Assembly: GCF_001952935.1 (NCBI RefSeq)
Contig: NZ_CP018319.1
Coordinates: 3,988,001-4,052,000 of the forward strand
DNA length: 64,000 nucleotides
Reading direction: 5' to 3'
Origin: Pseudomonas frederiksbergensis
GTDB lineage: Bacteria; Pseudomonadota; Gammaproteobacteria; Pseudomonadales; Pseudomonadaceae
Below are positions 282 through 26,369 of the stretch, in pieces (positions within the stretch are counted from its first letter, which is position 1; every line of letters begins with the position of its first letter). Below the pieces are notes generated by a model. It made no database searches, was not told the DNA's origin, and saw only the letters and a list, made by a program, of their open reading frames with translations. Both the position numbers and the translations under genes were made by a program.

Positions 282-1466
282 TCAGCGAATGTGTTGGGCG
301 TAATGCCGCGGATCGAAGCGCAAGACCATCAGGACCATCACTGCCATGACGCCGGTCAGTGACCACCAGGCCCATTCGAAGCTGCCGAGCTGGTCGCGGA
401 TCATCCCGGCAATCAGCGGCGAGAGACCGGCGATCAGGTAGCCGATGCCTTGCACGAACGCAGTCAGGCCACCGGCACGCTGGGGATTGTCCAGATGATC
501 CAGGGACACGATCAGGCTCATCGGGAACAGACCGCCGATGCCAAGCCCCAGCAGACAGGGCCACAACAGAGTCAGGTGTTGCGGGCTGAGAACAAGCCCG
601 CAGAAACCGGCCATGATCAGCGCCAGCAACACCACCAGCACCACGCGCCGGTCACGGCTGCGGTTGGCGATGGCCGGTGTCAGCAGGCCGGACAACACTT
701 CCATGGCGGTCAGGAAGCCCAGCAGCAACCCGGCGTTTTGTTCGCTCCAACCTTTTTCCACGTAGTACGGCGCCAGCCAGGCCAGCACACAGGTGTAGGA
801 CGCAGTACCCAGGCCGAAGAAGATTGCGAGCAGCCAGGCGCGGGAATTGCCGAAGAACGACCCATTGCGCTGCGCCTGAGCAGGCTGCGCCGGCAGCCTT
901 TCACGTTGCACGCACCAAAACAGCAGCGCTACCAGCGCCAGCGCCGCCCAGATCGCCAGGCCCACACGCCAGCTGCCAGTGCGGATCATCACCAGCGGCG
1001 CAAACGACGCCGCAATCGCTGCGCCGCCCATGATCGATGTGACGTAGAGCCCCATGCACACGGAAACGTTGTCGCTGAAACGGGATTTGATCAGCGCCGG
1101 TATCAATGCCTGGATCAGCGCGATACCGATACCCGCCAGCACGGCGCTGAGGATCAGTTCGGCCGCGGAATCGAGGAATAACCGCGACACCGTGGCCACG
1201 CCGATGATCAGCAGCGAGAGCACCACGGTGCGTTGTTCGCCGATTCGTTGGCTGACGCCCAGCCCAAAGAACATCGCCAGCCCCATTGCCATCACTGGCA
1301 GCATGGTCAACAACGAGGCCAGGCTGAAACTGAGCGCAATGTCACCGCGAATCGCCGACAGCAAAGGACCGACGGCGGCCATGGAAGGCCGCAGGTTCAG
1401 GGCGACAAGAATGATGCTAAACATCAGCCAGACGGCGGGGCGGGAGATTGCGCGAACGTTTTCCAT
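282..1466 (-). CDS. MFS transporter, CynX/NimT-like
   Basis: 394 residues, the usual length for a 12-helix major facilitator. After a short cytoplasmic start comes the signature LNLRPSMAAVGPLL, characteristic of the CynX/NimT (YycB) branch, which includes cyanate and 2-nitroimidazole transporters. Glycine-rich helices and short charged loops continue to the C-terminus (RFDPRHYAQHIR). The EamA-type exporter at 1-265 follows 16 bases downstream, suggesting a two-gene export operon. Upstream lies a REP pair and a long divergent region shared with the glutamine-synthetase gene. Family placement is good; the substrate is unknown. Confidence 0.85.
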   Translation of the reverse strand: MENVRAISRPAVWLMFSIILVALNLRPSMAAVGPLLSAIRGDIALSFSLASLLTMLPVMAMGLAMFFGLGVSQRIGEQRTVVLSLLIIGVATVSRLFLDSAAELILSAVLAGIGIALIQALIPALIKSRFSDNVSVCMGLYVTSIMGGAAIAASFAPLVMIRTGSWRVGLAIWAALALVALLFWCVQRERLPAQPAQAQRNGSFFGNSRAWLLAIFFGLGTASYTCVLAWLAPYYVEKGWSEQNAGLLLGFLTAMEVLSGLLTPAIANRSRDRRVVLVVLLALIMAGFCGLVLSPQHLTLLWPCLLGLGIGGLFPMSLIVSLDHLDNPQRAGGLTAFVQGIGYLIAGLSPLIAGMIRDQLGSFEWAWWSLTGVMAVMVLMVLRFDPRHYAQHIR

Positions 1467-1583
1467 CTATCGGACCTTGAATGACAAGGCGCCGATTAGG
1501 CGCGCGAGGCGTGCGGGCGGCAAATCAGAAAGTCCCAAGCAGTATTTAGAAATTAAATAACACTGCCGCGAAACAGCATCCTT

Positions 1584-1670
1584 GTGAGAGCGGGCTTGCT
1601 CGCGAAGGCGGCGTGTCAGCCACATGAGTATCGACTGACACACCGCTTTCGCGAGCAAGCCCGCTCCCAC
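1584..1670. repeat. REP pair, family A (GTGGGAGCGGGCTTGCTCGCGAA type)
   Basis: Two copies of a REP palindrome in inverted orientation: the left arm begins GTGAGAGCGGGCTTGC and the right arm ends GCAAGCCCGCTCCCAC, separated by about 40 non-conserved bases. The element lies in the divergent space between the MFS gene and the glutamine-synthetase gene. The same family recurs near 14.0, 16.3, 31.1, 49.2 and 50.7 kb. Confidence 0.9.
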
Positions 1671-1979
1671 ATTGGATAAGTGGTGTCTGGAGATGATTGT
1701 TTAGTCAATCCGCAACCAAAGTTCTTCAAATCCTGATTTAACGACTTAACCTCTCGTGTGACGCTGCGGCTCATCTGTTTCCTGTGGTTCTTTCTATGGA
1801 CGGTTGTCCCGTCGCACTTCCCTCCGAATTAGCCTTTTGGGCGCTGTGGCACTGCCGCCACGCGCGCCCACCGGATTCCTGCATTTCCCGTTGATTGTTC
1901 TGACAGGTCCCGCGCTAAGCGCCGGGATCAAAGCGGCGACGCCTGTGCGTTTGCCTGACGCGGAAATAAGAGAATTCCC
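1671..1979. other. Divergent intergenic region, no gene seen
   Basis: About 310 bases between the REP pair and the glutamine-synthetase start. I see no convincing coding frame on either strand other than the antisense shadow of the downstream gene. A short palindrome GATTG-N6-CAATC lies near 1695-1710 and could be an operator. A weak purine-rich stretch (AATAAGAG) precedes the ATG at 1980. Promoters for both flanking genes presumably lie here, but I cannot place them with confidence. Confidence 0.4.
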
Positions 1980-16960: not shown

Positions 16961-17737
16961 ATGTGTGAGTTATTGGGCATGAGCGCCAATGTCCCGACCG
17001 ATATCGTGTTCAGCTTCACCGGGCTGATGCAGCGCGGCGGCCGCACCGGTCCGCACCGTGACGGCTGGGGCATCGCTTTTTACGAGGGCCGTGGCCTGCG
17101 CCTGTTTCAGGACCCGGCGGCGAGCTGTGAGTCCGAAGTCGCGAACCTGGTGCAGCGCTATCCGATCAAGAGCGAAGTGGTGATCGGGCACATCCGCCAG
17201 GCCAATGTCGGCAAGGTCTGCCTGTCCAATACCCATCCGTTTGTACGTGAGTTGTGGGGCCGTAACTGGTGTTTTGCCCATAACGGCCAACTGGCGGACT
17301 TTCAACCGATCAAGAGTTTTTACCGCCCGGTCGGCGATACCGACAGCGAAGCGGCGTTCTGCGATTTGCTCAACCGCGTGCGCGCCGCGTTCCCGGAACC
17401 GGTAGAGGTCGAAGAACTGCTGCCAGACCTGGTAGCCGCCTGTGCCGAATACCGCAGCAAAGGCGTGTTTAACTGCCTGCTCAGCGATGGCGACTGGTTG
17501 TTCTGCTATTGCTCGACCAAACTGGCGCAAATCACCCGTCGCGCGCCCTTCGGCCCGGCGCGCTTGAAGGACGTCGATGTGATCGTCGATTTCCAGGCCG
17601 AAACCACGCCCAACGACGTGGTCACGGTGATCGCCACCGAACCCTTGACCGAAAACGAAACCTGGACCCGCTACGAACCGGGCCAATGGAGCCTTTGGCG
17701 ACGCGGTGAATGCGTCAGCCAGGGCAAGACCGAATAA
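16961..17737 (+). CDS. Class II glutamine amidotransferase (YafJ-like)
   Basis: 258 residues from an ATG at 16961, chosen because processing exposes Cys2 (MCELLGMSA) as the N-terminal nucleophile of class II glutaminase domains. Typical motifs are [34 protein letters not shown] and CFAHNGQL. No synthase domain follows, as in E. coli YafJ. It probably hydrolyses glutamine or another gamma-glutamyl bond; the acceptor is unknown. It is 12 bases from the next gene, consistent with co-transcription. Confidence 0.87.
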
Positions 17738-25543: not shown

Positions 25544-25614
25544 CGCAGACGGCTTATTCAGTCTCTGAATGGGGCGTCACATCTTGACTCAGTCTCGGCC
25601 CCTAGCCAGTATTG

Positions 25615-25639
25615 AGCTATCGCCATTTTGGCGATAGCT
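25615..25639. promoter_or_regulatory. Perfect 10-bp palindrome just upstream of the DUF4160-DUF2442 pair
   Basis: AGCTATCGCC-ATTTT-GGCGATAGCT: both 10-base arms are perfect complements around a 5-base loop. The right arm ends eight bases before the DUF4160 ATG, in the position of its ribosome-binding site. It could be an operator for the HTH protein encoded in the same operon, or an RNA stem limiting translation. Confidence 0.6.
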
Positions 25640-25647
25640 TGCGGGGC

Positions 25648-25878
25648 ATGTCTACTAAATACCGATTTCGCGATACGTACCGCATTCAGTTGCGCGAGAA
25701 GGACCACCCGCCGCCCCATGTTCACCTGACCGGCGGCGGGCTCGACGTGATGCTTAGCCTTGAAACCGTCGAAGTGATGGTAGGCAAGGCGCCGCCGCTG
25801 ATTATCAAGGAAGCGCTGGCGTGGGTCAGGGCCCATCAGGTGCAATTGCTGGAGGATTGGAAACGATGTTACCCATGA
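25648..25878 (+). CDS. DUF4160 family small protein
   Basis: 76 residues from the ATG at 25648. The family core RIQLREKDHPPPHVHLTGGG with the HxPPHxH-like motif is clear. DUF4160 genes are commonly found beside DUF2442 genes, and such pairs are listed by some predictors as toxin-antitoxin-like; no mechanism is proven to my knowledge. Here the pair overlaps by 13 bases. The Shine-Dalgarno is poor (GGGG) and lies against a palindrome. Length is normal for the family. Confidence 0.8.
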   Translation: MSTKYRFRDTYRIQLREKDHPPPHVHLTGGGLDVMLSLETVEVMVGKAPPLIIKEALAWVRAHQVQLLEDWKRCYP

Positions 25879-26369
25879 AACGGCCACGGCTGTCGTCCGT
25901 GCAGGTGTTGCCGGATTACCGCCTTATGCTGACCTTTATCGATGGTCAGCAACTGAACCTCGATTTGAGTCGGGACCTGCGCGCCTATCCAGGGTTGCAA
26001 CCCTTGTTGGAGATGAGCGCTTTCAATGGGGCAACCCTGGGCGACGATGGCTGGAGTGTCGATTGGCCTGAACTGGACATCCAGATCGGCGCAGACACCC
26101 TGTATCTGGATGCTCTCGCACAAAATGCAGTGGACGAAAACACCCGGATCTTCATCGACTGGCGTGCGCGCACCGGGTTGCCGCTCAATCAGGCGGCCGA
26201 AGCGCTGGGGGTCAGTGCCCGCAGCATCACGCGCTACAGCAGTGGTCGAGAAGCCGTCCCGCGATCGTTGGCGCTGGCCTGCCTGGGTTGGGACTTCTTG
26301 CAGCAGCAATCGAACCCGGCGCGGGCGGCTGAAGAAACCGGTCGTTACACCGTTATACGTAAGCCTTAA
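25866..26369 (+). CDS. DUF2442 protein with C-terminal helix-turn-helix
   Basis: 167 residues from the ATG at 25866, with GGAGG ten bases before; an alternative ATG at 25875 is in frame. The N-terminal DUF2442 part has VLPDYRLMLTFIDGQQLNLDLS and VDWPELDIQIGADTLY. The C-terminal part LNQAAEALGVSARSITRYSSG is a xenobiotic-response-type helix-turn-helix. The architecture suggests a DNA-binding partner for DUF4160, possibly repressing the operon through the palindrome at 25615-25639. Its stop overlaps the convergent DUF748 gene by four bases. Confidence 0.78.
   Translation: MLPMKRPRLSSVQVLPDYRLMLTFIDGQQLNLDLSRDLRAYPGLQPLLEMSAFNGATLGDDGWSVDWPELDIQIGADTLYLDALAQNAVDENTRIFIDWRARTGLPLNQAAEALGVSARSITRYSSGREAVPRSLALACLGWDFLQQQSNPARAAEETGRYTVIRKP

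Follow-up and report, generated by a model that had tools for sequence, protein, structure and literature searches.

The DUF4160/DUF2442 gene pair of Dickeya dadantii 3937 is, according to the available text of PMC8198452, a TA (toxin–antitoxin) system, named DhiTA, which is toxic, neutralized and autoregulated, the antitoxin about halving promoter activity and its complex with the toxin repressing more. A plasmid persistence module of Thermus thermophilus has the same two domains in the same order; its first gene could be introduced only together with the second, and in E. coli no effect of the Thermus genes was seen (available text of PMC12724237). The original prediction for the locus studied here had held that no mechanism was established for these families. 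That statement is overtaken by the toxicity, neutralization and autoregulation published in these two papers, and it stands as far as the target of the toxin is concerned, none having been found in the same literature (available text of PMC8198452 and PMC12724237). No operator is described for DhiTA in the accessible portion of PMC8198452, nor is a palindrome of the type reported below described in the accessible portions of PMC8198452, PMC12724237 and PMC12654330.

The second protein of the present pair has the DUF2442–HTH (helix–turn–helix) architecture of NE0471 from Nitrosomonas europaea (PDB 2AUW), which in the literature available to us serves only as a fold match. Aca10, whose HTH resembles that of NE0471, binds as a dimer to a promoter-overlapping palindrome with a minimum length of 19 bp (available text of PMC9410881).

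Layout of the locus

The pair lies in a window of 64,000 nucleotides of Pseudomonas frederiksbergensis DNA, the window being the whole stretch that was analysed. Its features are as follows.

25584–25612, + strand: alternative promoter P1, TTGACT (25584–25589), 17 nt, CAGTAT (25607–25612)
25612–25617, + strand: predicted −35 box of promoter P2, TTGAGC, 4/6, in a register common to 24 divergent loci
25615–25639: exact palindrome AGCTATCGCC-ATTTT-GGCGATAGCT, 8 bases (25640–25647) before the ATG at 25648
25618–25636: conserved core of the putative operator, TATCGCCATTTTGGCGATA, 19 bp, inside the palindrome and kept in relatives
25635–25640, + strand: predicted −10 box of P2, TAGCTT, 3/6, pattern TAnnnT, its TA also being part of the palindrome
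~25647/25648, + strand: predicted transcription start of P2
25648–25878, + strand: 76-aa DUF4160 protein (PF13711), presumed to be a DhiT-like toxin
25851–25856, + strand: antitoxin Shine–Dalgarno sequence GGAGGA, within the toxin gene, identical or similar in the majority of Pseudomonas loci
25866–26369, + strand: 167-aa DUF2442–HTH protein, presumed to act as antitoxin and repressor, PF10387, 2auw match; DUF2442 at approx. residues 10–80, HTH at approx. 99–137, recognition stretch SARSITRY at 117–124

The perfect palindrome that had been noted eight bases ahead of the DUF4160 start is thus an exact match, and the reported 13-base overlap of the two small genes agrees with the coordinates provided that ATG 25866, preceded at 9 nt by GGAGGA, is the antitoxin start; the alternative start at ATG 25875 would give an overlap of 4 bases. 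Inspection of the sequence revealed no clear Shine–Dalgarno motif for the toxin start. Our reading, to which we give a probability of roughly three in four, is that this pair is a DhiTA-like type II TA module that represses itself at this palindrome.

Comparison of the two proteins with known families

Both domain assignments of the original prediction lie above the Pfam gathering cut-offs, the first protein matching PF13711 with an E-value of 2e-13 and 50.8 bits (cut-off 23) and the second matching PF10387 with 5.7e-10 and 39.7 bits (cut-off 23.9), so that the locus, with the toxin gene first and its partner adjacent, has the composition of a DUF4160/DUF2442 pair. The HTH claimed for the second protein was borne out in that HTH_31 (Pfam) scored 26.9 bits, marginally under its cut-off of 27, yet the alignment with NE0471 (2auw), a relative of solved structure, spans residues 7–148 and takes in the HTH (E-value 1.1e-23); the two proteins have 36% identity over 137 columns. 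Most of the predicted antitoxin structure (pLDDT 84.8) superimposes on NE0471 (144 aligned residues, Z 12.8, rmsd 6.2), and its N-terminal part matches 3k8r with a Z of 8.6. The HTH gave Z values of 6–7 with Aca2, Aca10 and HigA2, which unrelated HTH proteins equal (e.g. HNF-1A, 6.3). The fold likeness to the Aca2 and Aca10 repressors (Z 6.5–6.7) is therefore of a common kind. These repressors also have palindromic operators that overlap the promoter; unlike the window antitoxin, they regulate anti-CRISPR genes, and to our knowledge neither has a DUF2442 domain. PADLOC returned for the pair only weak HTH matches (E-value 0.028 and worse).

The window pair shares with DhiTA a DUF4160 toxin gene in first place and an overlapping DUF2442 antitoxin gene in second. 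However, its toxin scores 40.6 bits against the NCBIfam DhiT model NF048015 (cut-off 100) and its antitoxin 13.5 bits against the DhiA model NF048016 (cut-off 200), and the HTH lies beyond the stretch that matches DhiA. Judged by these scores, the window pair is a relative of DhiTA and not an equivalog. The Thermus module differs from it in being plasmid-borne and, from what is accessible of its description, in having an antitoxin of 92 aa, which would leave little room for such an HTH.

The AF2 model of the toxin (pLDDT 94.5) consists of five strands followed by two helices. It had no Foldseek match at an E-value of 0.001 or below among the solved structures searched, and a second structure comparison, with a best Z of 4.3, yielded no clear solved counterpart; a reading of toxin activity from the fold was accordingly dropped, although the protein may still have a known fold. 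Residues M1, H20, H24, H26 and W59 are invariant across 12 diverse toxins and may belong to an active site or bind metal; H20, H24, H26 and W59 are intact in the window copy.

Association of the palindrome with the HTH domain

In 100 shuffles of the window, the expected number of matches to the palindrome pattern, allowing up to three mismatches, was 0.00, and its 19-bp core has one exact occurrence in the 6.2-Mb genome. The window holds nine perfect 10-bp inverted repeats compared with none in five mononucleotide shuffles; such a repeat is unremarkable alone, and the significance of this one is its conservation. Near-matches to the core number one site at one mismatch and 37 at two genome-wide, compared with 11 sites for a reversed control pattern. 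A genome-wide regulon was set aside as a reading (one exact core; 38 further sites with one or two mismatches against 11), and a terminator was rejected, there being no T-run after the palindrome and none listed there by a terminator scan. A site one mismatch off the operator core (TACCGCCCGGTCGGCGATA) lies at 17321–17339 of the window.

Relatives were collected more widely. DUF4160 is present in 98 of the 369 genomes of the class, and 29 of 30 class loci fetched gave a pair, none of the 29 being classed as HTH-bearing in what was a biased draw, these loci being the best matches to Pfam's model. Antitoxin profiles, some of whose matches span only one of the two domains, recovered HTH-type relatives in 20/398 genomes of the phylum, 34/369 of the class, 15/48 of another class and 11/250 of one order. 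The assembled 151 pairs comprise 89 with DUF2442 and HTH, 50 with DUF2442 alone and 12 with neither, the HTH calls resting on HMMs built from these same loci and not on a curated library. Toxins of fewer than 55 residues, pairs without DUF2442 and near-edge stretches were removed, and one pair was kept per 80% toxin identity.

After this filter, inverted repeats with at least 7 of 8 pairs were found upstream of 7/12 Pseudomonas HTH pairs (expected 0.25) and 11/25 other HTH pairs (expected 0.54), that is 18/37 (expected 0.8), compared with 1/36 HTH-less pairs (expected 0.99). At 85% deduplication the palindrome counts were 20/39 and 2/40. The core GCmAnnnTkGC stands upstream of 10/12 Pseudomonas and 15/25 other HTH pairs (25/37) but of only 1/36 HTH-less ones; among the 12 HTH pairs in which it is absent, some have broken or misassigned toxin starts (L042, L050, L116, L119) and others are true misses. 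The HTH-less pairs with the repeat are L140 and its relative L189. In L140 (approx. 1231–1731, reverse strand) a third gene of its own encodes the HTH and shares 4 bases with the DUF2442 gene, and an operator of this kind precedes the genes; other clade relatives without the HTH (L147, L186, L187) have no such repeat; no HTH was detected downstream in L189. Across the pairs compared, then, the palindrome accompanies the HTH, and the co-occurrence in other genomes that had been proposed as a check was found for the core as well as for the genes.

Promoter register and the probable start of the toxin message

To define the position of the palindrome, 72 contexts were reduced to 24 loci by deduplication (70% identity of a 45-mer) and selection for at least 7 pairs, or 6 with the final TA, and these were aligned at the palindrome centre. 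A −35-like hexamer lies directly to the left of the palindrome, with a mean TTGACA score of 3.58/6 (other offsets tested, 1.0–1.9), and a −10-like hexamer begins at its last TA, with a mean TATAAT score of 4.08/6 (other offsets tested, 0.9–2.7). When the hexamers were placed at random in the upstream DNA, none of 20,000 trials reached either score; for the −10, only the four bases outside the palindrome were counted. TTG is present at −35 in 12/24 loci, TA at −10 in 21/24 and the last T in 23/24. The palindrome thus forms the 17-bp spacer of a putative sigma-70-like promoter, in one register across 24 divergent loci, as illustrated by L220, which reads TTGACA-17-TATAAT-7-ATG.

The distance from the −10 to the toxin start is 6–7 nt in 16/24 loci, so the mRNA should begin at or adjacent to the toxin start. 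Three loci (L137, L138, L140) have 25–26 nt and a Shine–Dalgarno sequence in the same register, and the spacing is 14 nt in L222 and 19 nt in L133. Shine–Dalgarno-like motifs precede 8/37 HTH toxins compared with 20/36 HTH-less toxins. We think it probable, by a modest margin and from these spacings, that the toxin message is leaderless, starting at or near the ATG. Leaderless expression is known for the TA regulator paaR2 of E. coli O157:H7 (available text of PMC8630535).

In Pseudomonas the last T of the P2 −10 is present in all 66 unique sequences, whereas the mirror position across the palindrome is 54% conserved, as G (subset of 54 sequences), which identifies this T as a promoter base outside the dyad. 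P1 is also conserved, with TTGACT in 54/66 unique Pseudomonas sequences and CAGTAT in 48 of those 54; part of this conservation may belong to the site, since the TTGACT block is also found in L232, a genome without the module. Judged by its hexamers, P2 of the window is weak, matching the consensus at 7/12 positions compared with 8/12 for P1, and a consensus promoter scan reported neither. When the best-scoring promoter was chosen freely in the 12 Pseudomonas HTH loci, P1 was selected in five (L006, L023, L043, L047, L050) and P2 in two (L051, L118); both may be in use. A promoter lying 3–9 nt ahead of the start and containing an inverted repeat between its two boxes was found in 13/37 HTH loci and 1/36 HTH-less loci. 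Most likely, the palindrome is an operator that covers the promoter of a leaderless toxin mRNA.

Co-variation of the putative operator with the recognition helix

Operator distance tracks recognition-helix distance over 26 loci with an r of 0.71, or a partial r of 0.66 once the N-terminal domain is allowed for. None of 5000 permutations gave so high a value, related loci in the set not being independent. The operators were selected from the preceding analyses, and HTH loci without a clear in-register one were omitted (including L129–L131, L133–L136, L143 and L144). The correspondence is most readily seen at the residue preceding the conserved Tyr of the recognition helix, which is Arg123 in the window. 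Arg goes with GCC/GGC-type (TATCGCC-type) sites in 8/8 loci, Tyr with GCAA/TTGC in 11/12 (L139 has GCAC/GTGC) and Ala with GAA/TTC sites in 3/3; the single cases are Leu (L127, nonetheless GCAA), Asn (L208) and His (L214).

The operator role that the original prediction had offered for the palindrome is consequently well supported, at the level of sequence, by the association with the HTH, this co-variation and the fixed place in the promoter. The pair is of a kind recently recognized, and the operator built into the promoter of a probably leaderless toxin message looks like a new variant. We lean slightly towards regarding the HTH-bearing DUF4160/DUF2442 modules as a distinct, portable design, in which operator and spacer of a leaderless-toxin promoter coincide exactly, a single short element determines repression as well as low translation of the toxin, and one recognition-helix residue goes with the operator class.

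Proposed mechanism and an RNA alternative

In the module that we propose, the DUF4160 protein would be a growth-inhibiting toxin, which the DUF2442 domain of its partner would bind and neutralize, and the C-terminal HTH of the partner, as a dimer, would bind the 19-bp palindrome. As the palindrome fills the 17-bp spacer of the operon promoter, the bound protein would exclude RNA polymerase, resulting in self-repression. A transcript that starts at the toxin ATG, leaderless and without a Shine–Dalgarno sequence, would allow the toxin to be made only sparingly, and the antitoxin, through its own strong Shine–Dalgarno sequence, would be in excess. The palindrome thereby becomes a testable rule, in operator place and possible reading residue, for a widespread and little-studied TA family, and it offers a reason for which an operon with the toxin gene in front can avoid making too much toxin.

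The original prediction had also allowed for a translation-blocking stem. In such a case the palindrome would act also or mainly in RNA, the P1 transcript carrying beside the start codon a 5′ hairpin that lowers toxin translation and is perhaps bound by the HTH; Aca2 reportedly binds RNA. We consider this unlikely. The conservation of P1 in the lineage of the window (54/66) keeps part of the suggestion alive, the palindrome forms a hairpin of 7 bp in the predicted fold of a transcript starting at 25619 and the toxin lacks a clear Shine–Dalgarno sequence, but the register shared across taxa would begin the mRNA at the ATG, past the palindrome, and the folds are no better than those of shuffles (z −0.61, −0.88). 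Bases flanking the palindrome pair in 73/153 cases compared with 54.6 in shuffles (p 0.0014, both strands counted as rows). However, this excess is carried by position 11 (33/51 compared with 20.9), where G and C are common (85% each, 54 sequences), and neither position 10 (p 0.06) nor position 12 (p 0.47) reaches significance, so that the stem co-variation, resting on one position, is weak as evidence for RNA. In addition, one-arm changes are tolerated (L044–L046, L048, L052), L137, L138 and L140 keep the operator at the promoter and away from the start codon, and the palindrome accompanies the HTH.

Distribution, pairing and decay

A complete or partial toxin gene was found in 54 of 298 genomes of the genus, and antitoxin sequence adjoined it in all 54. 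Scoring a gene as intact when at least 70 (toxin) or 140 (antitoxin) residues were covered and a start codon was nearby, thresholds that we set ourselves, both genes were intact in 44 of these genomes, the toxin was broken beside an intact antitoxin in nine, the reverse was seen in none and both were broken in one. Such toxin-biased loss is the pattern that would be expected under selection against free toxin, and in being a conserved two-gene operon with loss skewed to the toxin the pair agrees with a type II TA system. The TA layout that had been predicted for the locus is thus upheld by the conserved pairing, the bias in loss and the published tests of the distantly related Dickeya and Thermus pairs. 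Conserved pairing, palindrome, register, co-variation and asymmetric loss are all direct observations on the sequences; toxicity, neutralization, binding, repression, the transcription start and relative translation are inferred. That the pair never was, or no longer is, a TA module, but an autoregulated pair that does no harm or a remnant in decay, is improbable: its presence in only 54/298 genomes, the ten broken copies among the 54 and the lack of a visible effect of the Thermus genes in E. coli (PMC12724237, available text) would suit it, but the genes, operator and H20, H24, H26 and W59 of the window are all intact, the toxin is the gene that breaks (nine to none) and other DUF4160/DUF2442 pairs are toxic (PMC8198452 and PMC12724237, available text).

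The module appears to be mostly vertically inherited, chromosomal and often lost. Among 87 Pseudomonas loci (some genomes having been fetched twice), moxR and an asmA-like gene flank 74, moxR alone flanks six and neither flanks seven. Seventeen genomes were inspected at this site, of which G036 and G207 hold remnants and several have, by eye, a short empty intergenic region; one locus was without anchors. A mobile element was rejected as a reading, toxin relatives occurring in 31/72,556 plasmid and 2/50,697 phage records, all with less than 60% identity.

The same genome carries, outside the window, a second TA-like pair (G000 C1:3293644–3294515; L059:1471–2342), in which a gene for a 142-aa protein with DEHCPPHAHV has a 4-base overlap with that for a 148-aa DUF2442 protein that carries the basic stretch GRKGGRPRK close to its end; the 100 bases upstream showed, by eye, no palindrome like that of the first pair. 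Viral contigs yielded six toxin loci and eight antitoxin loci. On one of them (L226:1–1352), which has a RelB-like gene at 353–598, RelE-like sequence (by eye) runs into the 3′ part of the toxin gene, and the antitoxin reading frame at 891–1352 is intact.
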